Assembly: GCA_026388755.1 (NCBI GenBank) | Contig: JAPLJE010000790.1 | Coordinates: 1 to 17,266, forward strand | Source of the DNA: Deltaproteobacteria bacterium | GTDB lineage: Bacteria > Desulfobacterota > Desulfobacteria > Desulfobacterales > Desulfatirhabdiaceae | DNA: 17,266 bases | Reading direction: 5' to 3' | Shown: positions 1 to 15,170 of the stretch, in pieces | Position numbering within the stretch: the first letter of the stretch is position 1 | Layout of the letters: each line of letters starts with the position of its first letter | Program-made: the position numbers and the translations under genes | Notes under the pieces: model-generated | Seen by the model: only the letters and a program-made list of their open reading frames with translations | Databases searched by the model: none | What the model was told of the DNA's origin: nothing

Positions 1-2
1 AT

Positions 3-2781
<2,779 letters not shown>

Positions 2782-2814
2782 AATCCTTTTTCGGCGGTTC
2801 ATGATTTTCATTCA

Positions 2815-2829
2815 TTCGGCTAAGCCGAA
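2815..2829 (+). other. Short stem-loop downstream of ligA
   Basis: TTCGGC-TAA-GCCGAA is a perfect 6-bp stem with a 3-nt loop, 34 nt after the ligA stop and before acyP. No T-run follows, so it is not a standard intrinsic terminator. It may only stabilise or pause the transcript. Confidence 0.35.
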
Positions 2830-2873
2830 GGCGCCTCTATTGTTTCAGATTCCCAGCAATAAAAGGATGGGTT

Positions 2874-3155
2874 ATGTCAAAACAGGTCAGGGCAAGAGTT
2901 GTGATCAGCGGAAAGGTTCAGGGTGTATATTTCAGGGCGGAAACCCAGCGTGCTGCCAAACAAAGGAACGTGCTGGGATGGGTCAGAAATCGATCGAACG
3001 GGTCTGTAGAAGCGTTGTTTGAAGGGGATGAGCCCTCTGTGAAGACCATGCTGGAATGGTGCTGGAAGGGTTCACCGTTTTCACGGGTTCAGCATGTGGA
3101 TGTACAGTGGGAAACCTATATGGGCGACTTCGATCGGTTTGAAATTGCCCTTTAG
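2874..3155 (+). CDS. acyP: Acylphosphatase
   Basis: Acylphosphatases hydrolyse the carboxyl-phosphate bond of acyl phosphates such as acetyl phosphate or 1,3-bisphosphoglycerate in the cytoplasm. The 93-residue length is normal for the family. The signature GKVQGVYFR is present with catalytic Arg21, followed by GWVRNRSNGSVE with catalytic Asn39. The start at 2874 is preceded by AAAGGATGGGTT, giving a usable ribosome binding site, and matches the family N-terminus. The gene sits 92 nt after ligA on the same strand and is convergent with the HU gene. Its physiological role in bacteria is generally unclear, and nothing here narrows it. Confidence 0.93.
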   Translation: MSKQVRARVVISGKVQGVYFRAETQRAAKQRNVLGWVRNRSNGSVEALFEGDEPSVKTMLEWCWKGSPFSRVQHVDVQWETYMGDFDRFEIAL

Positions 3156-3163
3156 AAAATTGA

Positions 3164-3214
3164 ATTCACCGCAGGCTTGAGTTTGCAGGAGATCTGCCGG
3201 TTCCTGCGGTGAAT
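3164..3214. terminator. 12-bp inverted repeat between convergent acyP and HU genes
   Basis: ATTCACCGCAGG (3164-3175) and CCTGCGGTGAAT (3203-3214) are perfect complements around a 27-nt loop that itself contains a small GCAG/CTGC stem. It lies exactly between the acyP stop (3155) and the HU stop (3240), which are convergent. A role as a bidirectional terminator is inferred. There is no strong T-run on either side, and the loop is long. Confidence 0.5.
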
Positions 3215-3239
3215 GTCTCAATAAAGAATGCGGCGATTA

Positions 3240-3515
3240 TTATATTCCATCCTTGAGTTTTTTTCCGGGGCGGAACTTAACCACATTGCTCTTTTTGATT
3301 TTAATGGCTTCACCGGTTCGGGGATTGCGACCTTTGCGGGCTTTGCGTGTGGTTTTCAAAAATGTTCCAAAACCTACCAGCGTTACCTTGCCATCTTTTT
3401 TGTCCTTAAGCGCCTTGCCGATACCGTCCATGAAAGAATTGAGCGCTGCGCCAGCGGCTGCCTTGGTAATTCCCGCGTCCTGAGCCATCTTGTCAACCAA
3501 ATCTGATTTTGTCAT
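3240..3515 (-). CDS. hup: HU-family DNA-binding protein
   Basis: HU is a small histone-like dimeric protein that bends and compacts DNA and supports replication and recombination. The 91-residue product has the usual length: an N-terminal helical part beginning MTKSDLVDKMAQ, the core GKVTLVGFGTF, then the DNA-binding beta arm with the GRNPRTGEAIKI motif and the lysine-rich end. The start is preceded by a purine-rich stretch (GGGGGGAAAGAAGAA) acting as ribosome binding site. A TAAAAT hexamer at 3531-3536 could be its -10 box, though no good -35 partner is evident. It is read in the same direction as the ftsY fragment upstream but is probably transcribed on its own. The symbol hup is generic; HupA versus HupB cannot be assigned. 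Confidence 0.93.
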   Translation of the reverse strand: MTKSDLVDKMAQDAGITKAAAGAALNSFMDGIGKALKDKKDGKVTLVGFGTFLKTTRKARKGRNPRTGEAIKIKKSNVVKFRPGKKLKDGI

Positions 3516-3574
3516 TTCTTCTTTCCCCCCATTTTAGATTGTTTGTAGTTCATGAACCAGGCTATTTGTAATGT

Positions 3575-3805
3575 TTACAGAACACTGTGGATGATGTCAA
3601 CAGAAAATCTTTGTTTGTCAACAGTTAATGACTTCAAAACGAAAAAAAACGGCATTTCAATAAAATTTTCCGGATTCATATAATCTATAACAAGTAATTG
3701 ACCTTTTTGTTCGGCCTTTAATGTTCCGGTATTTATATATCCCATTAAACATTCATCACTATCAAACTTAAATGTTTTACCTCTTTTTGTAACCACTTCA
3801 GCTCC
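3575..3805 (-). pseudogene. NosL-like protein C-terminal remnant fused out of frame behind ftsY
   Basis: Right after the point where FtsY homology ends, the next frame reads GAEVVTKRGKTFKFDSDEC and runs 76 codons to a TAA at 3575. The pattern (GAE..T..GK.FKFD...C...Y, then LLVIDYMNP and a FFVLKS segment) resembles the C-terminal half of NosL-like copper lipoproteins as found in Bacteroidetes. This is recognition from memory, not a search. The N-terminal signal sequence and metal-binding CxxCxM part are absent: upstream codons in this frame hit a stop at 3823. The stretch is clearly AT-rich (about one third G+C by eye) compared with ftsY. I read it as the tail of a second gene joined to ftsY by deletion or misassembly. 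It is not expressed as a normal protein here unless translation starts at the GTG at 3796. Confidence 0.5.
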
Positions 3806-4731
3806 AAGGGAAGTTTCAGATCATGACAGATACTGATTACGATTCCGCCTTTGGCGGTTCCATCCAGCTTGGTCAGTGCCAGCGCAGTTACCCCAATGGA
3901 TTCATGAAACAAACGTGCTTGTGAAATGGCATTCTGACCGGTTGTCGCATCCAGGATCAGAAGTGTTTCATGCGGTGCATTCGGGATCTTTTTGGAAACA
4001 GATCTTCTGATTTTTTTCAGTTCCTCCATCAGGTTGACGCGTGTATGGAGCCTTCCGGCCGTATCAACGATAACAACGTCCATATCTCGAGCAATTGCAG
4101 CTTCAACACCATCAAAGGCAACAGCCGCAGGGTCTGCATTGGGTTTGTTTCTGACGATTTCAGCGCCGGACCGCTCCGCCCATATAGTCAATTGTTCAAC
4201 GGCGGCTGCCCTGAAAGTATCCGCAGCAGCAATCAATACTTTTTTCCCGTCATGAGCAAACTGAGCAGCCAGTTTTCCGATGGTAGTGGTTTTTCCAACG
4301 CCATTGACTCCGACAACCATGATGATGAGGGGCCTGGAAACCGTATCCGGAACAGCGACCGTGACATTCAATAATTCCAGGATTTCCTGCTTGAGAGCCT
4401 TTTTGAATCCGTCTGAATCCAGTTTTTCCGATGAAAACTTTTCGGATATGCCCTGGATCAAATCAGTAGCCATTTTAACCCCGATATCTGCGGAAATCAA
4501 AATCTCTTCCAATTCTTCCAGCAGTTCATCGTCTATCTGACGCTTTCCGACAAAGAGTTTGTCAATGTCTGTTGTTAGAACCTGACGGGTTTTCGAAAGA
4601 CCTTCTTTGAGTTTCTGGATCAGACCGCGAGGGGGTAGCGGGGCGGTTGGCGGTGATGAAGAAGTTTTATCCTTCTCCGGCGGAAGGGAATCTTCCGTAT
4701 CCTTATTTTTCCTGAACCAATTTAATGCCAT
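3745..4731 (-). CDS. ftsY: Signal recognition particle receptor FtsY, C-terminus replaced
   Basis: FtsY is the SRP receptor GTPase that docks ribosome-SRP complexes at the inner membrane. The 328-residue product shows an acidic/proline-rich leader, the four-helix N domain (about 36-120), and the G domain with G1 GVNGVGKTT (141-149), DTFRAAA (171-177), DTAGR (223-227) and TKLDGTAKGG (287-296). Homology stops at Leu309. The expected end, roughly 30 residues carrying the GVGE nucleotide-closing loop and the DLxxF helix, is missing and is replaced by 19 unrelated residues ending at a frame-shifted stop. The start has AAGGGAT 6 nt upstream. Because FtsY is normally essential and this end helps form the GTP site, this copy is probably non-functional, or the sequence is chimeric. 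Confidence 0.88.
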   Translation of the reverse strand: MALNWFRKNKDTEDSLPPEKDKTSSSPPTAPLPPRGLIQKLKEGLSKTRQVLTTDIDKLFVGKRQIDDELLEELEEILISADIGVKMATDLIQGISEKFSSEKLDSDGFKKALKQEILELLNVTVAVPDTVSRPLIIMVVGVNGVGKTTTIGKLAAQFAHDGKKVLIAAADTFRAAAVEQLTIWAERSGAEIVRNKPNADPAAVAFDGVEAAIARDMDVVIVDTAGRLHTRVNLMEELKKIRRSVSKKIPNAPHETLLILDATTGQNAISQARLFHESIGVTALALTKLDGTAKGGIVISICHDLKLPLELKWLQKEVKHLSLIVMNV

Positions 4732-4830
4732 TGAAATCCCTTATATTCTTAGCAGGCAAGAGGCCGAATTCGCCTTCTTATCCTACAAAATGCTCATATA
4801 GCCCCATGGTATGCAGAAAGCAGACAGGGG

Positions 4831-5604
4831 TCAATGCAGAATCTGACTGAGAAAGAGTTTGGTCCGGTCATTTTGAGGATTATCAAAAAATGCTTCCGGT
4901 GTGTTGGATTCCACAATCTGACCAAAATCCATGAAGAGTACCCGATGTGCGACGCTTTTGGCAAAACCCATTTCATGGGACACCACGATCATGGTCATTC
5001 CTTCCTGGGCCAGGCTGATCATAACATCCAGAACCTCCTTGACCATTTCAGGGTCCAGGGCGGAGGTGGGTTCATCGAACAGCATGATATTGGGCTTCAT
5101 GCAAAGACTTCTGGCAATGGCCACGCGCTGCTGGTGACCTCCGGAAAGTTGTCCCGGAAATTTTCTGGCCTGCTCAGCGATATGGACTTTTTCCAGATAA
5201 TACATGGCTGTTTTTTCTGCTTCGATTCTGGGGATTTTTCGAACCCATATGGGCCCCAGGGTCAGATTTTCCAGAATGGTCAGGTGGGGAAACAAATTGA
5301 AATGCTGAAATACCATGCCCACTTCAGCCCGTATCTTTTCAACATTTTTAATATGGCTGGTCAGCTCCGTGCCATCCACAATAATTTTCCCTCGCTGATG
5401 CTCTTCCAGTCGGTTTATGCAGCGGATCAGTGTGGATTTGCCAGAACCCGACGGGCCGCAGATGACAATCCGCTCTCCCTTTCGTATGGTCAGATTGATG
5501 CCGCGCAGGACATGAAAGTCGCCATACCATTTGTGCATATCAATTATTTCTATGACTTCTTTGGTTTCAGGAAGATTTATAGCGGTTGCGGGAGTTGCAT
5601 TCAT
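4831..5604 (-). CDS. aapP: Polar amino-acid ABC transporter ATP-binding protein (AapP/GlnQ type)
   Basis: This is the ATPase of the aapJQMP importer, hydrolysing ATP on the cytoplasmic face to drive amino-acid uptake. The 257-residue product has Walker A GPSGSGKS (50-57), Q-loop Gln100, signature LSGGHQQR (153-160), Walker B IMLFDEPT (173-180), D-loop SALD and switch His210. The signature has His where most relatives have Gln (LSGGQQQR), a mild variation. The start has GGAG 6 nt upstream. It is the last gene of the operon, 130 nt after aapM. This is a high-confidence family call; Aap rather than Gln is chosen because of the neighbouring long permeases. Confidence 0.94.
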
Positions 5605-5734
5605 GAACGCTCCGTAATTAACAAATGAAAATGCTGGGCATGTCAGCTGTCAGCAAAGCATGAAAGTAAAATCTGGCTAAATAAAATTTCATATTTTTTG
5701 ACTATCGTCCGCCACTTGTTGCCAATGACAGTTT

Positions 5735-6841
5735 TTATGATGACATCCCCAGCTCTTTTTCCAGTTTTCTGCTGTAATTGGACATGGTGTAGCAGCAGAT
5801 AAAATAAATGCAGGCCAGGAAAAAAAAAGCTTCCGTGGAAAATCCCATCCAGCTTGGATTGGCCAATGTTGTCTGAGTTGTTTTGAGGATATCATATAAG
5901 CCGATGATAACCACCAGAGACGTATCCTTGAATGCGGAAATCAGGATGCTGACAGAAGGTGGAATAACGATTTTCAGCGCCTGGGGAAGGATGATCAGGC
6001 GCATGGTCTGGACATAATTCAGTCCCAGGGATTCTGCCGCCTCGTACTGGCCTCTGGCGATTCCCTGAAGGCCGCCGCGAACCACTTCGGCGATGTAGGC
6101 GGCCGTAAACAGGATAATGGCAACCTGCGCCCGCAGAATCTTGTTTATGGTGATGCCTTCGGGCAAAAACAGTGGAAAAATGACTGCTGACATAAAGAGC
6201 AGGCTGACCAGGGGAACGCCTCGGATCATTTCGATGTAAATGATGCTAAGAGTTTTTATGGCCGGCATTTTGGACCTTCTGCCTAGTGCCAGCAAAACCC
6301 CCAGCGGATAGGCAGCGGTCAGTCCGAAAACCGCCAGAAGAAACGTCAGGGGCAGCCCCCCCCATTGCGTGCTCTCAACTGGAGCAAGTCCCAGCATTCC
6401 CCCCTTCATCAGAATGGCCATGCAAAAAAAACCTGCGACCCAGGCATAGAAAAGGAGGCGTTTCCAGAATTTCCGATTTCTGCTGATCAGCAGCAGGCTG
6501 ATCAGCAGAATCATTGCCAACAGGGGCCGCCATTGGAGTTCATGGGGGAAAAATCCGAACAGGATAAAGCGGTAGTTTGCTGAAATGATAGACCAGCATG
6601 CCCCATCCACGGATCGGCATTCCACGGCAGTGCTTGTCCAAAGGCTGTCTACAAAAATCCACCGGATCAGAGGCGGAAGAATTTTCCCAAGGAAAAGAAG
6701 TGTGATAAGGGTCAGCACCGAATTAAATATGCCGTTAAACAGATTCGATTTGATCCATCCAATAATCCCAATGCTGGTCAAGGGAGGCTTGATATCGTCT
6801 GAATGACTATTCAAAGATTGTTTGGAATGCTGTGTTGTCAT
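5735..6841 (-). CDS. aapM: Amino-acid ABC transporter permease AapM
   Basis: This inner-membrane permease subunit pairs with AapQ to form the channel of a general L-amino-acid importer. The product is 368 residues from the ATG at 6841, with about eight predicted membrane segments and a long N-terminal extension before the transport domain, as is usual for AapM. The C-terminal half carries the EAA loop EAAESLGLNYVQTMRLIILP that contacts AapP. The frame is open to a TTG at 6880, only 4 nt after the aapQ stop. This would add 13 residues and give tight coupling; neither start has a strong ribosome binding site, so the start is uncertain. A 15-nt tandem repeat encodes part of a Leu-rich membrane segment near 6483-6508. 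Confidence 0.92.
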   Translation of the reverse strand: MTTQHSKQSLNSHSDDIKPPLTSIGIIGWIKSNLFNGIFNSVLTLITLLFLGKILPPLIRWIFVDSLWTSTAVECRSVDGACWSIISANYRFILFGFFPHELQWRPLLAMILLISLLLISRNRKFWKRLLFYAWVAGFFCMAILMKGGMLGLAPVESTQWGGLPLTFLLAVFGLTAAYPLGVLLALGRRSKMPAIKTLSIIYIEMIRGVPLVSLLFMSAVIFPLFLPEGITINKILRAQVAIILFTAAYIAEVVRGGLQGIARGQYEAAESLGLNYVQTMRLIILPQALKIVIPPSVSILISAFKDTSLVVIIGLYDILKTTQTTLANPSWMGFSTEAFFFLACIYFICCYTMSNYSRKLEKELGMSS

Positions 6842-6884
6842 AAAACATTCAGATCCGCTTTCAGGTTTAGCTCCAAGCAAATAA

Positions 6885-8075
6885 TCATCGTTCGATCAGT
6901 GCAATTTTTTTATTGTACCAGTTCATGAATGCCGAGGTAAGCAGACTGAAAATGAGATAGACCACCATGATCAGCGCAACGCCTTCTATGGCCTGGCCGG
7001 TCTGATTAATGGTGGTGTTGGCGACGGAAACAAAATCCGGAAATCCAATGGCAACGGCCAGGGAGCTGTTTTTGGTGAGATTGAGCATCTGGCTGGTCAA
7101 AGGCGGAACAATGATGCGAAGCGACTGGGGAAGGATAACAAGATTCAGGGTCTGCCAGGGTTTTAATCCCAGGGACATGGCTGCCTCGGTTTGGCCCTTG
7201 CTGACCGCCTGAATTCCAGACCGGACGATTTCCGCCACAAAAGCGGCGGTATAAAGCACCAGCCCCAGCAGTAGTGCGGTAAATTCCGGGCTGACATTGA
7301 TTCCACCGGTAAAATTAAAGCCTGAAAGCCGAGGCATGTCCATGGCCGTCGGAGTCCCGAAAATTATCCAGGTGATCAGGGGAAACCCCAGTAAAATAGC
7401 AGATCCTGTGCTGAACACCGGAAAAGCCAGGCCTGTCCGGTCCTGCCTTTTCATAGCCCATTTGCGAACAAAATATACACATATACATCCAATCAGGAAG
7501 ACAATGGCGATATACTTATAAGCCGGGTGGGGCTCAGGGATGCCAAAGGCCAGTCCTCTGTTACAAAGAAACATGCCTGGAAGCGGTTCCATCGCATTTC
7601 GGGGAGAGGGAAGCGAATCGTAAAAAACAGCATACCAGAAGATCAGTTGAAGCAATATGGGGATATTCTGGAAGAATTCAATATAAGCTGCTGCCAGTCG
7701 CGAAACCAGCCAATTTGAGGACAGCCTGGCAACGCCAACGAATGTTCCCAGCAGGGTTGTCAGGATAATTCCCACAAAGGCAACCTTAAGGGTATTCAGG
7801 ATGCCAACGAGCAGGGCTCTGGCATAGTTGCTGGCCGCTGAATAGCGGATCAGCGACTCTCCGATCTCAAACGATGCCTCTCTTTCCAGAAAATGGAAAC
7901 CGGTTGCAATGGACTGCCGGTGAAGGTTTGTCACGGTATTGGAAAAAAGATAGTAGCCGATGAAGCCGACCACAGCAAGGGTTGCCAATTGATACACAAT
8001 GGCTCTCTTGGCAGGGTCATGCCAGAAAGGGATGGAATTTTCAGATTCTTTCGTTGATGGCAAGGAGAAGTCCAA
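6885..8075 (-). CDS. aapQ: Amino-acid ABC transporter permease AapQ
   Basis: This is the partner permease of AapM in the amino-acid importer. The 396-residue product begins with a cytoplasmic tail (IPFWHDPAKR is typical of AapQ), a first membrane segment near residues 28-45, a periplasmic stretch, then the permease core. The EAA loop EAAMSLGLKPWQTLNLVILP lies in the last third. The start codon must be TTG at 8075: an in-frame TAG lies two codons upstream, and the first ATG is far inside the conserved core. No clear Shine-Dalgarno sequence precedes it, so translation may be weak or coupled in some other way. It follows aapJ by about 180 nt and precedes aapM by a few nt. Confidence 0.93.
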   Translation of the reverse strand: MDFSLPSTKESENSIPFWHDPAKRAIVYQLATLAVVGFIGYYLFSNTVTNLHRQSIATGFHFLEREASFEIGESLIRYSAASNYARALLVGILNTLKVAFVGIILTTLLGTFVGVARLSSNWLVSRLAAAYIEFFQNIPILLQLIFWYAVFYDSLPSPRNAMEPLPGMFLCNRGLAFGIPEPHPAYKYIAIVFLIGCICVYFVRKWAMKRQDRTGLAFPVFSTGSAILLGFPLITWIIFGTPTAMDMPRLSGFNFTGGINVSPEFTALLLGLVLYTAAFVAEIVRSGIQAVSKGQTEAAMSLGLKPWQTLNLVILPQSLRIIVPPLTSQMLNLTKNSSLAVAIGFPDFVSVANTTINQTGQAIEGVALIMVVYLIFSLLTSAFMNWYNKKIALIER

Positions 8076-8203
8076 ATGCTAATAAGTGGTCAGTATTCAG
8101 TCATAAAAAATTTCTTGAACTGCCGGCGCTCTGCAATAAGCAGTCTGCGCTTCCATGGATCTTTCACGGCAATCATTCCGGGCAATATTTCTGTTTATCC
8201 TTA

Positions 8204-8228
8204 TGCAGGGCTGTCGGTGTACCCTGCA
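8204..8228 (-). other. Stem-loop between aapJ and aapQ
   Basis: TGCAGGG (8204-8210) and CCCTGCA (8222-8228) form a perfect 7-bp stem with an 11-nt loop, just after the aapJ stop on the minus strand. No T-run follows. In binding-protein transport operons such a hairpin often protects the upstream mRNA so the binding protein outnumbers the permease; that role is inferred here. Confidence 0.45.
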
Positions 8229-8256
8229 CAAGAAGATGACGGTAAGATTTGACAGT

Positions 8257-9276
8257 CTATTTGAACGGAGGTGAATACATCAATCCGCCGTTAACCCACA
8301 GTGCGTTCAGACCGCGTTCCAGAGCCAATGGTGTTTTTGGGCCGACATTGCGATCAAACACCTCGGAGTAATTGCCAACCTGTTTGACGATGTTGTAGGC
8401 AAAATTTTCTTCCAGACCCAGGGCTTTTCCGTTTCCGGGGACGACTCCCAAAAACCGCTGGACAGAAGGATTGGTGCTTTTAAGCATTTCATCCACATTT
8501 TTTGATGTAATGCCCAGTTCCTCAGCTTCAATCATGGCCAGAACCGCATAATTGACAACGTCTTTCCACTGGTTGTCACCATGACGAACTGCCGGCGCCA
8601 GGGGCTCTTTGGAAATAATTTCCGGTAAAATGATATAATCTGCCGGATTCGGCGCTACCGACCTGGCGCCAGCCAGTTGAGAGGCATCTGATGTCAGGCA
8701 ATCGCAACGGCCGGCGAAGAACGCTTTGTTCAACTCGGCGTTGTTTTCAATGACAACGGGTTTCATTTTCATGTTTTTGGAGCGGAAATAATCTGCGACA
8801 TTCTGTTCGGTGGTCGTTCCGGGAAGAACGCATACCGTTGCGCCATCCAGCTCTTTAGCGCTTTTGATGTTCATTTTTTTCGGAACCAGAAAGCCCTGTC
8901 CATCATAATAATTGACCTGGGCAAAATCAAGACCCAGGGAGGTGTCGCGGCTCAGGGTCATGGTGGCGTTGCGGCACAGAACGTCCACTTCACCGGACTG
9001 AAGTGCTGTAAAGCGTTGAACAGCGGTCAGCGGAATAAACTTGATTTTTTTGGCATCACCGAATATTGCCGCGGCAATCGCCCGTCCGGTATCCACGTCC
9101 AGTCCTTTCCATTCCCCTTTTTCATCGGGAATGCCGAACCCGGCCAACTGGCCGTTGACGCCAACCTGGACAAATCCCTTGGCCTTGACATCATCCAGCG
9201 TGCCTGCATTGGCAATGCCTGTGGCAAGGACTATGACAGTAACAAATACCCAAACCCATAACTTTTGTAATTTCAT
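8257..9276 (-). CDS. aapJ: Periplasmic amino-acid-binding protein AapJ
   Basis: This is the solute-binding protein that captures amino acids in the periplasm and delivers them to AapQM. The 339-residue length is typical of AapJ. It starts with a Sec signal peptide (MKLQK, then a hydrophobic run, likely cleaved after ANA at about residue 24). The mature part begins GTLDDVKAKGFVQVGVNG and contains the family region GEVDVLCRNATMTLSRD followed by DFAQVNYYDGQGFLVP. An excellent AAGGAGG ribosome binding site lies just before the ATG, in contrast to the poor one of aapQ. It is the first gene of the operon. Specificity (broad or acidic/polar L-amino acids) is inferred from the family. Confidence 0.95.
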   Translation of the reverse strand: MKLQKLWVWVFVTVIVLATGIANAGTLDDVKAKGFVQVGVNGQLAGFGIPDEKGEWKGLDVDTGRAIAAAIFGDAKKIKFIPLTAVQRFTALQSGEVDVLCRNATMTLSRDTSLGLDFAQVNYYDGQGFLVPKKMNIKSAKELDGATVCVLPGTTTEQNVADYFRSKNMKMKPVVIENNAELNKAFFAGRCDCLTSDASQLAGARSVAPNPADYIILPEIISKEPLAPAVRHGDNQWKDVVNYAVLAMIEAEELGITSKNVDEMLKSTNPSVQRFLGVVPGNGKALGLEENFAYNIVKQVGNYSEVFDRNVGPKTPLALERGLNALWVNGGLMYSPPFK

Positions 9277-9734
9277 CTTGTCCTCCTTTAGGTGTTGTGG
9301 ATATGAATCTGCTTCAGTGATTTGAATCGTCTTGATTGTTCAATTTGATACCATACAAGCTTTAATAATGGCAAGAGAAAAGGGGACTTGCCTTTGGATG
9401 GCGATTTTTAAATGTCCATGATCAGTTCGACAGTTTAGAAAGAATGCTGTGTTGTATTTTCAAATGTTTCAGGATTGAATCAGTTCAGTTGTTTCCATAT
9501 TATTTTGTTTTAAGTTAGAGAGCATTTCTCTGTCAATGGAAAATGATTCTGTACAGCAATTCTCACTGAAGGTTCAAGATTATGAGAAGGGATCAAGGAA
9601 GTCAACCAAAGTGAAAACAATTTAGGACAGGTATATTCAAAAGTGATCGAGGGTGATCGTATTTATTCTGGATTTGCTGTTATGAACTTGGGGTGGGAAG
9701 CAGAATGCGTGTGTTTGGAAATGGCTTTGCTCTC
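9277..9734. other. Non-coding leader of the aap operon
   Basis: No convincing gene is seen in this stretch between aapJ and the insertion sequence. It should hold the aap promoter on the minus strand. One weak candidate is TTGCCA, 18 nt, TATCAA, overlapping the inverted repeat near 9370. A 29-codon frame from an ATG at about 9537 on the plus strand lacks a ribosome binding site and is not called. Confidence 0.4.
9370..9392. promoter_or_regulatory. Possible operator: GGCAAG-N11-CTTGCC
   Basis: This 6-bp inverted repeat with an 11-nt spacer lies about 95-115 nt upstream of the aapJ start and overlaps a weak -35-like TTGCCA on the minus strand. Its symmetry and position suit a regulator binding site. 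No known motif is recognised. Confidence 0.3.
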
Positions 9735-9788
9735 TTGAGCGAATTGGCCGATGATAATAATGGGTTCAGTAGTTACCAGGTTTTATGG

Positions 9789-10523
9789 TTAGGGCGGTCT
9801 TATTTCAGGTGGATTCCAGATGAAGTTGAGCATATGTTCCCAGTCGTTGAAGCAGAGCACTCGAAAGGTGCAGCGCAGTTGGTTCCAGTATTCCTTGCGG
9901 GAGGTGAACTTTGACCGGCAGCGCTGATAGATTGGATCGCACAGATCCAGTATTTGATGGATAAAAAAGGCCAAGAGGTTCAGAACAAAAAAATTCATCG
10001 ACAGGTTTTTTTTGCCGTGTCCGAAGTTATGTTCGATGTGATAGCCCTGATTTTTTAAAGTATTGAAGGTTTCATTTTCGATCTTCCAACGGGCTCTACC
10101 CGCCTGAACCATTTCGGCGATATTGTTTTTACTGACAGGCAGATCAGTCACCCAACTGTTTTGATAAACAATTTTGTCATTATCGCGGATATGATATTGA
10201 AAGAAATTGATTTGATCGGCATTTGCAGTACCGTTTAAGGGAACATCCGTGACCCATTGATACAGATGGGTTCGACCTTTTTTATCCGTAGTTGTGAGAC
10301 TGCTCCCTGCATTCAGACCTGTGAGCTCGTGTACCCACTGAAAAAGGATTTTGTGATCATCTGGTTTAGCCACCAGGATAAATGACATGACCTGTTCCTT
10401 GAGCAGATCAACAAAGGGCTGTTTGGAATAAAGGTCATCAGCGACGATAATCATTTTAAGCTTTGGATGCTGTTTTCGGATCATTTGAAGCGCTCTTTTG
10501 GCAGCATTGATTTCACAATCCTG
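9789..10523 (-). pseudogene. Transposase, C-terminal part (-1 frame)
   Basis: This is the second half of the DDE transposase. Read from CAG at 10523 in the -1 frame, it begins QDCEINAAKRALQ, continuous with the first half, and runs to TAA at 9789. It carries the second catalytic Asp (IIVADDLYSKQPF) and the third-residue region WKIENETFNTLKNQGYH, with the Glu of the DDE triad, followed by EHNFGHG. Joined with the first part the protein would be 434 residues, a normal size for such transposases. Translation needs either a -1 ribosomal frameshift or repair of a missing A. An internal ATG at 10484 could start a catalytically incomplete fragment. Confidence 0.85.
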
Positions 10524-11092
10524 TTTTTTTGACCATCGCTGTTTTGGATGCCCTCCGGGCTAAGCGGAATAACCTGCTTTAAGCCAGGTTTGATGATGGC
10601 AGCCTGAAGGATTTGGTGATGGTAGCGCAGATCGCCATTTTTAGATTTTTTGGTAAGACAAGCCGGACACTGGATGGAATCGGATGAAAAATATTGTGAG
10701 CCATCCAGCGCTACCAAGTAATGATCTCCGAGCGATTGATATTTTTCAAGCTGCTTGCCCCGTTGTAGGGCTGAGAGTATTTTGGGAAACAAGGGTTTCA
10801 ACTGCTCGGTAGGCAACTGATCGATGACGGTGCGAAGCTGGGTATCCTTTGGAATGGATTCAACTGCAAAGAAGCTTTTAAGGTTGTTTTGCTGGAGACT
10901 ATCCTGCATCCGACGCTGGAATGCCAGAAGTGAAGTATCCTGAAAATACATCATGGCAAAAGCGCTCATAAAGATATCGTGGAGGCTGTAATCAGTTTTT
11001 GCAGCCTGTCGCTTATCCGGCAAGTTCTCAAAATGTTTCGAGAGTGCTCGACTGAGAGCGGAAAAGCTCAGATGTTTTTTAGGTTCTCTCAT
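10481..11092 (-). pseudogene. Transposase, N-terminal part (0 frame)
   Basis: This is the first half of the DDE transposase, starting MREPKKHLSFSALS with AAAGGGATT just before the ATG. It holds a helical DNA-binding-like N-terminus (SLHDIFMSAFAMMYFQD), the first catalytic Asp (LVALDGSQYF, Asp130) and a CPAC pair (142, 145). Correct reading ends at codon 190, in the slippery run CAA AAA AAC (10531-10523). Beyond it the 0 frame gives 13 unrelated residues and a stop. Related transposases, as I recall them, are single uninterrupted ORFs, so a one-base deletion in the A-run is the simplest reading. Programmed frameshifting is the alternative. Confidence 0.85.
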
Positions 11093-11098
11093 AATCCC

Positions 11099-11134
11099 TT
11101 TAAATAAGCTGTTGATATTTATAGCTTATTTAAA
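11099..11134. repeat. 12-bp inverted repeat upstream of the transposase
   Basis: TTTAAATAAGCT (11099-11110) and AGCTTATTTAAA (11123-11134) are perfect complements around a 12-nt loop, 6 nt before the transposase ATG on the minus strand. It could be a transposase operator, or an mRNA hairpin limiting translation or read-in transcription. The role is inferred. Confidence 0.45.
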
Positions 11135-11450
11135 TGGAAAAGTCTAGTTTTTTATTTATAATTATATCAAGTTGTTATGATAATTTGATCGAATTGGCTT
11201 CGCGAAAAACTTTTTATTATATTTTCTAAATGTTGAGATATGCTACCTCTTTTTGTTCACCGAGAATTGCTGGATTCTGTAGAGGCAAAAAATGCTGAAA
11301 GATTGACAAAAGACACAGGTCGAATGGCTGAAGGTATAGGTTTTTATCATTGTTTTTGGTCTTTTCGGTCTTTGGCCTGAATACCTCAGGAAATTGCAAT
11401 TAATCTTTATGCGCCGCAAGGCCTGTGATATGACGAAAAAAAGGAGAAAA
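11135..11450. other. AT-rich non-coding stretch before the HMG-CoA lyase gene
   Basis: No supported gene is visible. A 46-codon frame (11240-11380, +) has no ribosome binding site and no recognised similarity. A TTGACA at about 11304 lacks a -10 box at the right distance. The promoter of the lyase gene should be here but cannot be placed. Confidence 0.4.
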
Positions 11451-12419
11451 ATGCAGATGGATATGGAAACAAGCAGTCAGCTTGTGAAGCCGGTGCCCGC
11501 AGTGAATACGCGGGAGGTTTTTTGCAGAGCGTTTCCGAAACATGTGACGCTGATCGAGGTAGGGCCTCGGGACGGATTTCAGTTCGAGGAAAAAATCGTT
11601 CTGACCGCACTGAAGCTTGAAATAATCATGCGTCTGGTTGAGGCCGGGTTCAAGCACATACAGGTGGCTTCATTTGTTCATCCCGGCAAGGTGCCGCAGA
11701 TGGCGGATGCGGAAATACTTCTCTCTGCGCTGTCCGGAATTCCAGGCATTGCATTCAGCGCGCTTGTGCTGAACATGGCAGGAGTTGAGCGGGCAATCTC
11801 CTCAAAGCTGGCCCATATCGAGGTTTCGATATCCGCCAGTAACCGCCACAGCCTGAACAATACGGGCATGAGTGCGGATGCGGCCCTGAAAATGGGCCTG
11901 AAAATGGTTGCTTTATCCAAAGAGCACGGAATGCACGTCCGGGCAGGCATTCAGTGTGCTTTCGGCAGTGGATACGACGAAGTGATTTCCGAAGATCGGA
12001 TTGCGGCCATGGCAAAAGACCTGGTGACGGCCGGCGCCGACATGCTCTGTCTGGCTGACACCACCGGAATGGCAACGCCGCTTACGGTCCACCAGGTTCT
12101 TTGTTCCGTCAGACCTGTTGCCGGCAATCTTCCGATCATCATGCACCTTCACGATACCCGCGGACTCGGGCTGGCGAATGTTATGGCGGCCATGTCCTGC
12201 GGGGTTTCCCATTTCGATACGGCCCTTGCCGGCATGGGCGGATGCCCCTTTATTCAAGGTGCTGCAGGGAACATCGCCACAGAAGATACCCTGTATCTTC
12301 TGTCTTCCCTGCATATCGAAACCGGCTTGAATCTGTCTAAAATCGCCGCCTGTTCCAGAGACCTGGAAGTTTTTTTTGGCAAATGTTTTCCCGGAAAACT
12401 CTATCGGCACTGCGATTGA
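11451..12419 (+). CDS. mvaB: Hydroxymethylglutaryl-CoA lyase
   Basis: HMG-CoA lyase cleaves 3-hydroxy-3-methylglutaryl-CoA to acetoacetate and acetyl-CoA, the last step of leucine breakdown. The 322-residue DRE-TIM barrel has all key residues almost at human-enzyme numbering: Arg40-Asp41 in GPRDGFQ, metal ligands His232 and His234 in MHLHDT, the active-site Cys265 in GMGGCPF, and Asn274 in GAAGNIATED. The start at 11451 is chosen for AAGGAG 4 nt upstream; ATGs at 11457 and 11463 are possible and the one at 11457 has better spacing. The frame is open to 11394 but that part is not family-like. No other leucine-degradation or mevalonate genes are next to it. Another DRE-TIM lyase activity is possible but less likely. 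Confidence 0.9.
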   Translation: MQMDMETSSQLVKPVPAVNTREVFCRAFPKHVTLIEVGPRDGFQFEEKIVLTALKLEIIMRLVEAGFKHIQVASFVHPGKVPQMADAEILLSALSGIPGIAFSALVLNMAGVERAISSKLAHIEVSISASNRHSLNNTGMSADAALKMGLKMVALSKEHGMHVRAGIQCAFGSGYDEVISEDRIAAMAKDLVTAGADMLCLADTTGMATPLTVHQVLCSVRPVAGNLPIIMHLHDTRGLGLANVMAAMSCGVSHFDTALAGMGGCPFIQGAAGNIATEDTLYLLSSLHIETGLNLSKIAACSRDLEVFFGKCFPGKLYRHCD

Positions 12420-12478: not shown

Positions 12479-14824
12479 ATGAAAAAGAATAAAGAAAAAA
12501 TACTGTATGACCGGGCCAAAGCCATATTGAAAAACAACTCTTCGTCCTTTAATGCAATTGCGCCCGCAGATATTCATGAGTTGATCGAGAATCTCAAAAT
12601 TCATCAGATCGAACTCGAAATGCAGAACGATGAGCTTCTCAGTACCCAGGCCAAACTTGAAATGGCACAGCGCAAATATTTTGAACTCTATGATTTGGCT
12701 CCGGTAGGATATCTTTCGATGAACCCAAGGGGGATCATCCTTGAGATCAATCTGACTGCTGCGGATTTGCTGGGTTTTTCAAGAGGTCAATTGATCTCCA
12801 AAGACTTTGGCCGATATATTTTTATGGATTTTCAGGACATTTTTTATATCCATCGTCATACTGTTTTAAAGACGCTGGAGAAAAAAAACTGCGAGCTGAA
12901 ACTCATCAAAAAAGATGGCGGACAATGTTTTGTCCTGATGAATACCCTCCCCATCCTGATGGAAAACGGAGACGTCAGCGAACTTCGATCGACGATGACC
13001 GACATTACGGAGCGAAAGCTGCTGGAAAATACCCTGTTGGAGAGCAAAAAAACGATTCAGGCCCTTAATGAAGCCAATTCAGAGTCTGTCATGCTGCTTG
13101 ACAGGAAGGGGACGGTGCTAATGATCAATGAAACTGGCGCCCGCAGACTGGGGCAGAACGCAGAAGTTATGATCGGCCTGAACATCAATGATTTTTTGCC
13201 TCCCGAAGTTTCAAAAGAGAGAATGGATTGGTTCAATGAGGTTCTTTCCATGCGTCAAGCTCTCGATTTTCAGGATAAGCGCATGGAAAGGCAATATCAG
13301 CATAACCTTCAGCCGGTCCTGAATGAACAAGGAGATGTGGAGAAAGTCGCTGTTTTCGCGCGGGACATTACACTGGATCATGAGGCTCTGGATGCGCTGC
13401 TCGAGAGCGAAAAAAAATACCGCCTGCTGGTAAATACCGCGCCGATAGGCATCGTGGTGACCCAGGACGGGCTTCTTAAACTGGTTAACCCTCGTGTCTT
13501 ATCTATATCCGGTTATTCAGAACTGGAATTAACCTCTAAATCATTTATTGAAATCGTGCACCCGGACGATCGGGCGATGGTAATGGCATCCCATGTGCGG
13601 AGGCTTAACGGTGAAGACGTCCCAGAAACGTATCTGCTGAGGATTATTACCAGGGGCGGCGAGATAAAACGGATCGAAAACAAAGGCGTGTTGATCACCT
13701 GGAAGGGCCGTCCCGCCACGCTGAATTTTCTCTTTGATGTTACCGAACGTCAACTGGCCGCAGATACCCTTTTTAAGAGCGAGGCTCAGAAACGGACGAT
13801 TCTTGACGCCACCACGGATCTGATTCATTACATTGATAATGAGATGAAATTGATATGGGTCAACAAAGCAGTTCTCCACGAGTTTCATGTTTCGATGGAG
13901 CAAGTCATCGGTCAGTTCTGCTATCGCATATTTTACCATCGAAATGTGATTTGCGAAAATTGCCCGTCGGTGAAAGCGAATCAAACGCGGCAAATAGAAT
14001 GCGCTGTCCTGCATATGGGAGAAAAACCGAATGCCAGATATTGGGATGTCTTCAGTGCGCCGCTTATGGATGAACAAGAGAAAATCTCAGGCTTTATTCA
14101 GATTGCAAGAGACATTACGGCGCAGCGGAAAACAGAGCAGGCGCTGCGGAAGAGCGAGGCTTTTCTGAACATGCTGCTGGAAACCATCCCTATCCCGGTT
14201 TTCTACAAGGACAGGGGTGGGCGATACCTGGGGTTCAACAAAGCGTTTGAGACCTTCTTCGGGACAAGCAAGGAACAAATGATTGGCTCGAGCGTATTTG
14301 ATATCAGTCCTCCCGAACTTGCTAAAGTCTATCATGCCAAGGATGTCGAGCTGTTCGAAAAGCCTGGCGTCCAGGTATATGATTCACAGGTACAGGACGC
14401 ACGTGGCGTCTTGCACAATGTGACCTTCCACAAGGCATCGCTCACTGACACGCAAGGCACGATCACCGGTCTGGTCGGCGCGATCCTTGATATCACCGAG
14501 CGCAAGCAGGCCGAAGAAAAGATACACGAACTGTCTCACTTGCTGATACAGGCCCAGGAAAAAGAACGGCATCTGATCTCATGTGAACTGCATGACAGTA
14601 TCGCCCAGAATCTTTCCGTGCTGAAAATCAACATCGATACGATTTGTAACGATCCGTCAATGAGTTCCCCAGAGTGTAGGGAGAAACTGGCGGCATCTTC
14701 CAGCCTGCTTTCTCAGACCATTTCGGCAGTCAGGAATTTGGCCTATGACTTACGCCTTCCAGGAAAACACAAAAATAAAAGTTGTTTTTCAATCGGCCGG
14801 CATGTCTGTGATAGACATGGATAA
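12479..14824 (+). pseudogene. Multi-PAS NarX-type sensor histidine kinase, N-terminal part (broken)
   Basis: This part is the sensory region and phospho-acceptor domain of a soluble histidine kinase. No membrane segment is seen. A coiled-coil N-terminus (about 31-66) precedes five PAS domains (about 65-180, 195-300, 312-425, 437-550, 560-678), most ending in a DITER-like motif. HisKA_3 follows, with AQEKERHLISCELHDSIAQN and phospho-acceptor His705. Reading is normal to LAYDLRLPG (762), then runs into 19 unrelated residues and a stop. The next frame resumes with the end of the missing linker, so about 15-20 residues plus the frame are lost. A GAGG sits before the ATG. The fourth PAS has a cysteine cluster (Cys481, Cys492, Cys495). 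Without the ATPase domain it cannot autophosphorylate. Confidence 0.85.
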
Positions 14825-15170
14825 TAATATGGAAATCCATGTTTACCGGTTGATTCAAGAGGCTCTGAGCAATGTCCGTAAACATGCGGAAGCCGACCAT
14901 GCATCCATCCTGTTGATGGGATCGTCCCCGAACATCATCTTGCGCATCGAGGACAACGGCAGAGGGTTTGATGTGAAGGCTCAGGAGCTTTTATCCGCCG
15001 CTACAAAACGGATGGGAATTCGCAGCATGCAGGAAAGGGTCAATTTGCTTCATGGCCAGATGACAATTCAGTCCCAACCGATGAATGGCACCAAAATATT
15101 TATCAAAATCCCTTTGCCAGCCTTATCGGCAAAATTGACAAACAAAAATCCCGCATCGACCCACCTGTAG
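14745..15170 (+). pseudogene. Histidine kinase ATPase domain, C-terminal part of the broken kinase
   Basis: This is the HATPase_c domain that belongs to the preceding kinase, in another frame. From FQENTKIKVVFQSAG onward it matches NarX/DegS-type kinases: N-box YRLIQEALSNVRKHAEA, G1 box IEDNGRGFD, G2 region MGIRSMQERVNLLHG, then GTKIFIKIPLP. The start at 14745 is merely an in-frame ATG inside the upstream gene and has no ribosome binding site. A separate protein could form only by re-initiation. It ends at 15170, immediately before the first copy of the 69-bp repeat. Confidence 0.85.

Follow-up and report, generated by a model that had tools for sequence, protein, structure and literature searches.

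The end of ftsY in a draft genome is replaced by a short piece of Bacteroidetes nosL, most probably through a metagenome artifact

Introduction

FtsY, the SRP receptor GTPase, is essential in bacteria. What, then, should be made of a genome in which ftsY breaks off before its end and continues in another reading frame? We investigated such a case in a stretch of DNA of 17,266 nucleotides, hereafter the window, which corresponds to bases 1-17,266 of contig C425 of the draft genome G000 (3.97 Mb; 839 contigs; completeness 92.95%, contamination 5.68%). The named relatives of its FtsY, P0014 from Desulfatirhabdiaceae and P0015 from Deltaproteobacteria, suggest that the host is an uncultured relative of sulfate reducers. 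The original prediction on this locus proposed that the break could be a deletion fusion (with a second ftsY or a compensating change elsewhere), a non-functional copy or an assembly chimera.

FtsY is normal up to Leu309 and lacks its closing loop and last helix

The assembled ftsY frame occupies 4731 to 3745 of the minus strand and encodes 328 amino acids, of which residues 1-309 are genuine FtsY and residues 310-328 are read out of frame from a patch of foreign DNA. When aligned with G001 and G005, both from the genus of G000, the frame reads as a normal FtsY through TKLDGTAKGG to Leu309 (...HDLKLPL), followed by 19 unrelated residues and a stop: after Leu309 the window reads ELKWLQKEVKHLSLIVMNV and a stop, as opposed to KYIGIGENIEDLQSFNSEDFVDALF and a stop in G001. 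DNA in another frame takes the place of the last 25 residues of FtsY, which comprise the closing loop and the C-terminal helix. The joint reads CTTCCC-TTG-GAGC. The original prediction had placed it correctly, and its account of an FtsY that is normal to Leu309, loses the GVGE/DLxxF end and continues in another frame is borne out by this alignment.

The remaining part of the protein carries the N and G domains typical of SRP GTPases, with Pfam matches to SRP54 (PF00448, 1.6e-66 over 135-311) and SRP54_N (PF02881, 3.4e-13). It covers model positions 2-256 of 279 of TIGR00064 with 309.9 bits, and a search of solved structures with the window protein again returned FtsY. The product resembles the bacterial SRP receptor in its N domain and in its G domain through TKLD and the next strand, but differs from it in lacking both the GxGE motif, which we take to be the closing loop, and the C-terminal segment with DLxxF. 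Passages of a paper on SRP GTPases (PMC1904258) describe how the closing-loop glutamate packs against the ribose and place the C-terminal helix at the N/G interface, a position also given in a passage of PMC2572998. An FtsY deprived of both elements is unlikely to be a working protein.

The lost end is kept by all homologues examined

GxGE and DLxxF were present at the end of all 120 homologues listed, which are the best 120 of 8000 scored in the protein database. A stricter pattern for the FtsY end recognized 117 of these 120, and the other three were assigned by eye. We also examined 37 related genomes, 33 of which gave an FtsY-level match; the end was read in 19 of those 33, the other 14 being left out, and GxGE and DLxxF were found in 19 of 19 loci. 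This is as expected if the FtsY end is needed. Relatives with the altered ending, named by the original prediction as evidence that would speak against it, occur neither among the 120 listed proteins nor at the 19 loci, and these counts rule out the altered end as a normal variant.

The two congeners, whose FtsY is 86% (G001) and 83% (G005) identical to that of the window, both have the normal end. Over residues 1-309 the best identity among the first 60 listed homologues is 91%; apparently no listed homologue belongs to the same species, and an intact same-species copy was accordingly not found among them. Four of the 37 relatives (G006, G011, G028 and G031) have no FtsY-level match and show only weaker matches, in frames at least about 450 residues long. 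Drafts of the host's group may often be without ftsY or carry a form missed by the search.

Foreign DNA replaces the end of ftsY between collinear flanks

Compared by blastn with contig C2 of G001, the window aligns collinearly at positions 1-3678 (89% identity) and 3805-9381 (87%), and the flanks of the patch are collinear with both congeners. In the gap between these two blocks, 126 bases of the window (3679-3804, minus strand, 30% GC) stand in place of 88 bases of G001, and likewise of 88 bases in G005. This minimal foreign patch replaces the end of ftsY, its stop and the start of the spacer. Counting the ambiguous bases at the joints, the foreign tract extends at most over 3657-3807. The sequence from 3575 to 3656 (minus strand) is host ftsY-HU spacer that can be aligned with G001 and G005 (loci L004 and L005). 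Downstream of ftsY lies a gene for an HU-family DNA-binding protein (3240-3515, minus strand; PF00216, 1.9e-30) in DNA collinear with both congeners; beyond the patch, collinearity with G001 extends over this gene and over those for acylphosphatase and NAD-dependent DNA ligase. The change in ftsY is a replacement, neither a deletion fusion nor two long contig arms joined together.

The original prediction, made for the region 3575-3830, had an "unrelated gene tail" begin in another frame at about 3805. The foreign DNA and its frame stand, but its extent is short, 3575-3656 being host spacer, and it is no gene tail, as the identity of the donor shows.

The patch matches the interior of a Bacteroidetes nosL gene

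We searched the contigs of GTDB genomes with 51 residues translated from the patch's own frame and obtained one locus, L024, in the MAG Ki3-D2_bin-0761 of an uncultured Bacteroidetes bacterium; because a hit requires an exact match to one of six 8-residue words, other sources can be missed. Window positions 3807 to 3657 are identical at the DNA level to this locus (151/151 bases). The donor ORF is nosL (PF05573, 3.3e-12), which encodes the copper chaperone of nitrous oxide reductase, and it is surrounded by a nosZ-like gene with a nos_propeller domain, nosD and two ABC-transporter genes. The patch encodes about 50 residues of a Bacteroidetes NosL. Unlike a nosL gene, however, the window holds an internal piece that begins inside a nosL codon and has neither N-terminus nor C-terminus, so there is no gene here; in window 3578-3808, the NosL domain PF05573 gave no match at E up to 1.

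The nearest NosL proteins among those listed are 97%, 88% and 87% identical. The first of them, P0121, whose sources are jgi and lgn, agrees by our reading with the donor at every residue of the patch region, so the donor lineage occurs at more than one site. At the DNA level, the patch was matched in none of 57 other genomes around the donor, with at most 14 candidates scored in each, which argues against sequence conservation as the cause of the identity.

Another metagenomic protein, P0135, encoded on a 631-base contig and judged from the protein alone, starts as NosL and departs right after MDNK, only a few bases from the nosL position at which the patch of the window starts. It seems to be a further nosL chimera among public metagenome sequences. 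The closeness of the two breaks may be a coincidence, or the nosL site may favor chimeras.

Both joints lie at short homologies

The left joint (3805-3807, minus strand) consists of TTG, common to the host's relatives and the donor. Chance alone can give three shared bases, with a probability that should be considerable. At the right joint (3657-3678, minus strand) lies a 22-base tract in which the window matches the donor at 22/22 positions, G001 at 17/22 and G005 at 18/22. When donor 22-mers were paired at random with 22-mers drawn from 150 bases surrounding the site, 0 of 200,000 pairings reached the observed match, for each relative; the right joint therefore sits at a real similarity between the donor and the host genome. 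At position 3657 the window has the base of the donor and not that of G001 or G005, which weakly favors donor DNA up to there. The window represents only the joined product, and in the host itself the tract is perhaps fully donor-like (22 of 22). We found no hairpin at the nosL break (z 0.86) and no inverted repeats in 3500-3950 around the patch.

One ftsY and one copy of the patch were found in the host genome

The original prediction had pointed to a possible second ftsY. G000 was searched with TIGR00064 and by protein search. No second FtsY was found: there were two hits, and only the window exceeds the family cut-off of 260.7. The other, a 447-amino-acid frame with 230.6 bits, is taken for Ffh. 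With the homologous 171 bases of G001 as query, no loose ftsY end was found elsewhere in G000, the only matches being the two flanks in the window, and the patch is present in single copy.

We further looked for other patches by comparing seven G000 contigs (61,269 bases, including 9,000 of the 10,416 bases of C379 and leaving out C229), found with three of the five pieces of G001 contig C2, with that contig. Nine chosen unaligned stretches of 38-2,133 bases were then compared with 6,153 bases of donor DNA. The ftsY patch was the only one to match, and the eight others gave none. The seven contigs show no sign of a general fault of the G000 assembly, with patches from sources other than the donor being possible.

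Origin of the patch

The patch, the identical donor gene, the collinear flanks and the homologies at the joints are directly observed. We consider it highly probable that this end of ftsY is a metagenome artifact, produced by a chimeric library molecule, a false assembly link or both, and most likely the junction between ftsY and nosL is not a genuine gene fusion. Such an origin is favored by the replacement of 88 bases while both flanks remain collinear with G001 and G005, by the 151/151 identity to nosL of a MAG from another phylum, and by a patch that begins inside a nosL codon with no inverted repeat in 3500-3950. The contents of G000 point the same way (only one FtsY hit exceeds the cut-off, a detached ftsY end was not found and the patch occurs once), as do the intact ends of the 120 listed homologues and 19 loci, the state of the draft (839 contigs, 5.68% contamination) and P0135, another metagenomic protein resembling a nosL chimera. 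The identical tract is also about one short-read length, which may be a coincidence, since the 151 bases include the ambiguous bases of the joints. A stratified-lake dataset with 2 x 150 reads may, we presume, be the source of the Ki3 MAG. The corresponding paper (PMC8121793) describes 2 x 150 reads and the use of Megahit, and "Ki3" is absent from its main text.

We infer that a short piece of nosL from a co-occurring Bacteroidetes bacterium would have been spliced into the contig where the host sequence was thinly covered, in the library or the assembly instead of the cell. The left joint, with its three shared bases, calls for a chimeric library molecule, formed for example by template switching or blunt joining during library making, and the right joint can stem from a second template switch or from a false link at a short word shared in the assembly graph. 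A de Bruijn graph alone cannot make a joint with only three shared bases; the explanation therefore has to suppose either repeated sampling of one chimeric molecule or very low coverage. The living cells would most likely have a normal ftsY. As in chimeric contigs of short-read metagenomes, an abrupt joint between two phyla comes with a change of composition and a broken conserved gene, and the donor DNA, single-copy in the bin, is identical to another organism's gene. Whereas such contigs join two long arms, the window has an internal patch of 126-151 bases with both flanks correct. The assembly chimera foreseen by the original prediction is supported in this altered form, as an internal patch from an identified donor gene.

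Several points weigh against an artifact: the left joint requires the extra assumption just given, the homology at the right joint is equally what recombination in the cell would use, and no general assembly fault is shown among the nine stretches of the seven contigs. A real event would account for the anatomy equally well. In it, a short Bacteroidetes fragment would have entered a host cell and replaced 88 bases at the end of ftsY through double illegitimate recombination, guided by 3 shared bases at the left joint and by an imperfect tract of about 22 at the right one: a short heterologous patch lies between collinear flanks with homology at both joints, and that at the right joint is far above chance. 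Papers on short-patch double illegitimate recombination exist, and Hulter and Wackernagel reportedly described the double event in 2008 in natural transformation of Acinetobacter baylyi. The short heterologous replacement and the short joint homologies resemble those cases; in contrast, the present one is known from an assembled consensus alone and affects a gene whose end is supposedly essential. The resulting FtsY would be without its closing loop and last helix, and the line would survive only if this end were dispensable or FtsY function were supplied otherwise. Yet the end is kept by all 120 listed homologues, the lost elements are structurally important in SRP GTPases according to passages of PMC1904258, and complete identity to a present-day donor strain would make the event very recent, yet it is already the assembled consensus. 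On likelihood only, given the end kept by all homologues examined, the full donor identity and the draft nature of the assembly, we rank a real event below an artifact and regard it as unlikely. A very recent, natural cross-phylum event of this kind, with a population of an uncultured sulfate-reducer relative living with an FtsY without closing loop and last helix, is about as improbable or slightly more so.

That the window holds a true non-functional or minority copy, from a strain variant with a broken ftsY whose normal counterpart was lost from the bin or left unassembled, appears very improbable. The bin is 92.95% complete and contaminated, and four of 37 relatives (G006, G011, G028 and G031) have no FtsY-level match, so ftsY is often missing in drafts of the group, but no fragment of a normal ftsY end was found in the bin. 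Least probable is that a deletion fused two distant parts of this genome; the abrupt joint speaks for it and nothing else does. This option of the original prediction is contradicted by flanks collinear with G001 and G005 on both sides and by the lack of a second copy of the patch in G000 as assembled.

If the patch is an artifact, it demonstrates that roughly one read length of DNA from another phylum can sit between correct flanks within a core gene of a short-read MAG. Examining contigs one at a time would probably not reveal such a patch, and it could pass as a gene fusion or horizontal transfer. If it is real, it would show that in nature a short piece of DNA from another phylum can take the place of part of an essential gene.

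Other observations on the window and G000

Further along the window, about 2.1 kb (9382-11514) have no alignment with G001 at this place. This stretch contains the overlapping frames 9789-10484, with no Pfam match at 1e-3, and 10481-11092, with a DDE_Tnp_1-associated domain. A PAS-domain histidine kinase is split at 12479-15170: frame 12479-14824 ends after HisKA_3, and HATPase_c lies in another frame at 14745-15170. Near the break (14756-14763), 56 alignment columns are missing relative to G001 and the frame is shifted. Outside the window, positions 2002-2197 of locus L031 (at about 22,000 of G001 contig C2) hold a repeat of about 150-190 bases that is dispersed over G000, matching 25 of its contigs. 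Positions 785-955 of L033, absent from contig C414 of G000 at the collinear position, match partly the same contigs, and the pattern of both stretches is as for a mobile short repeat.
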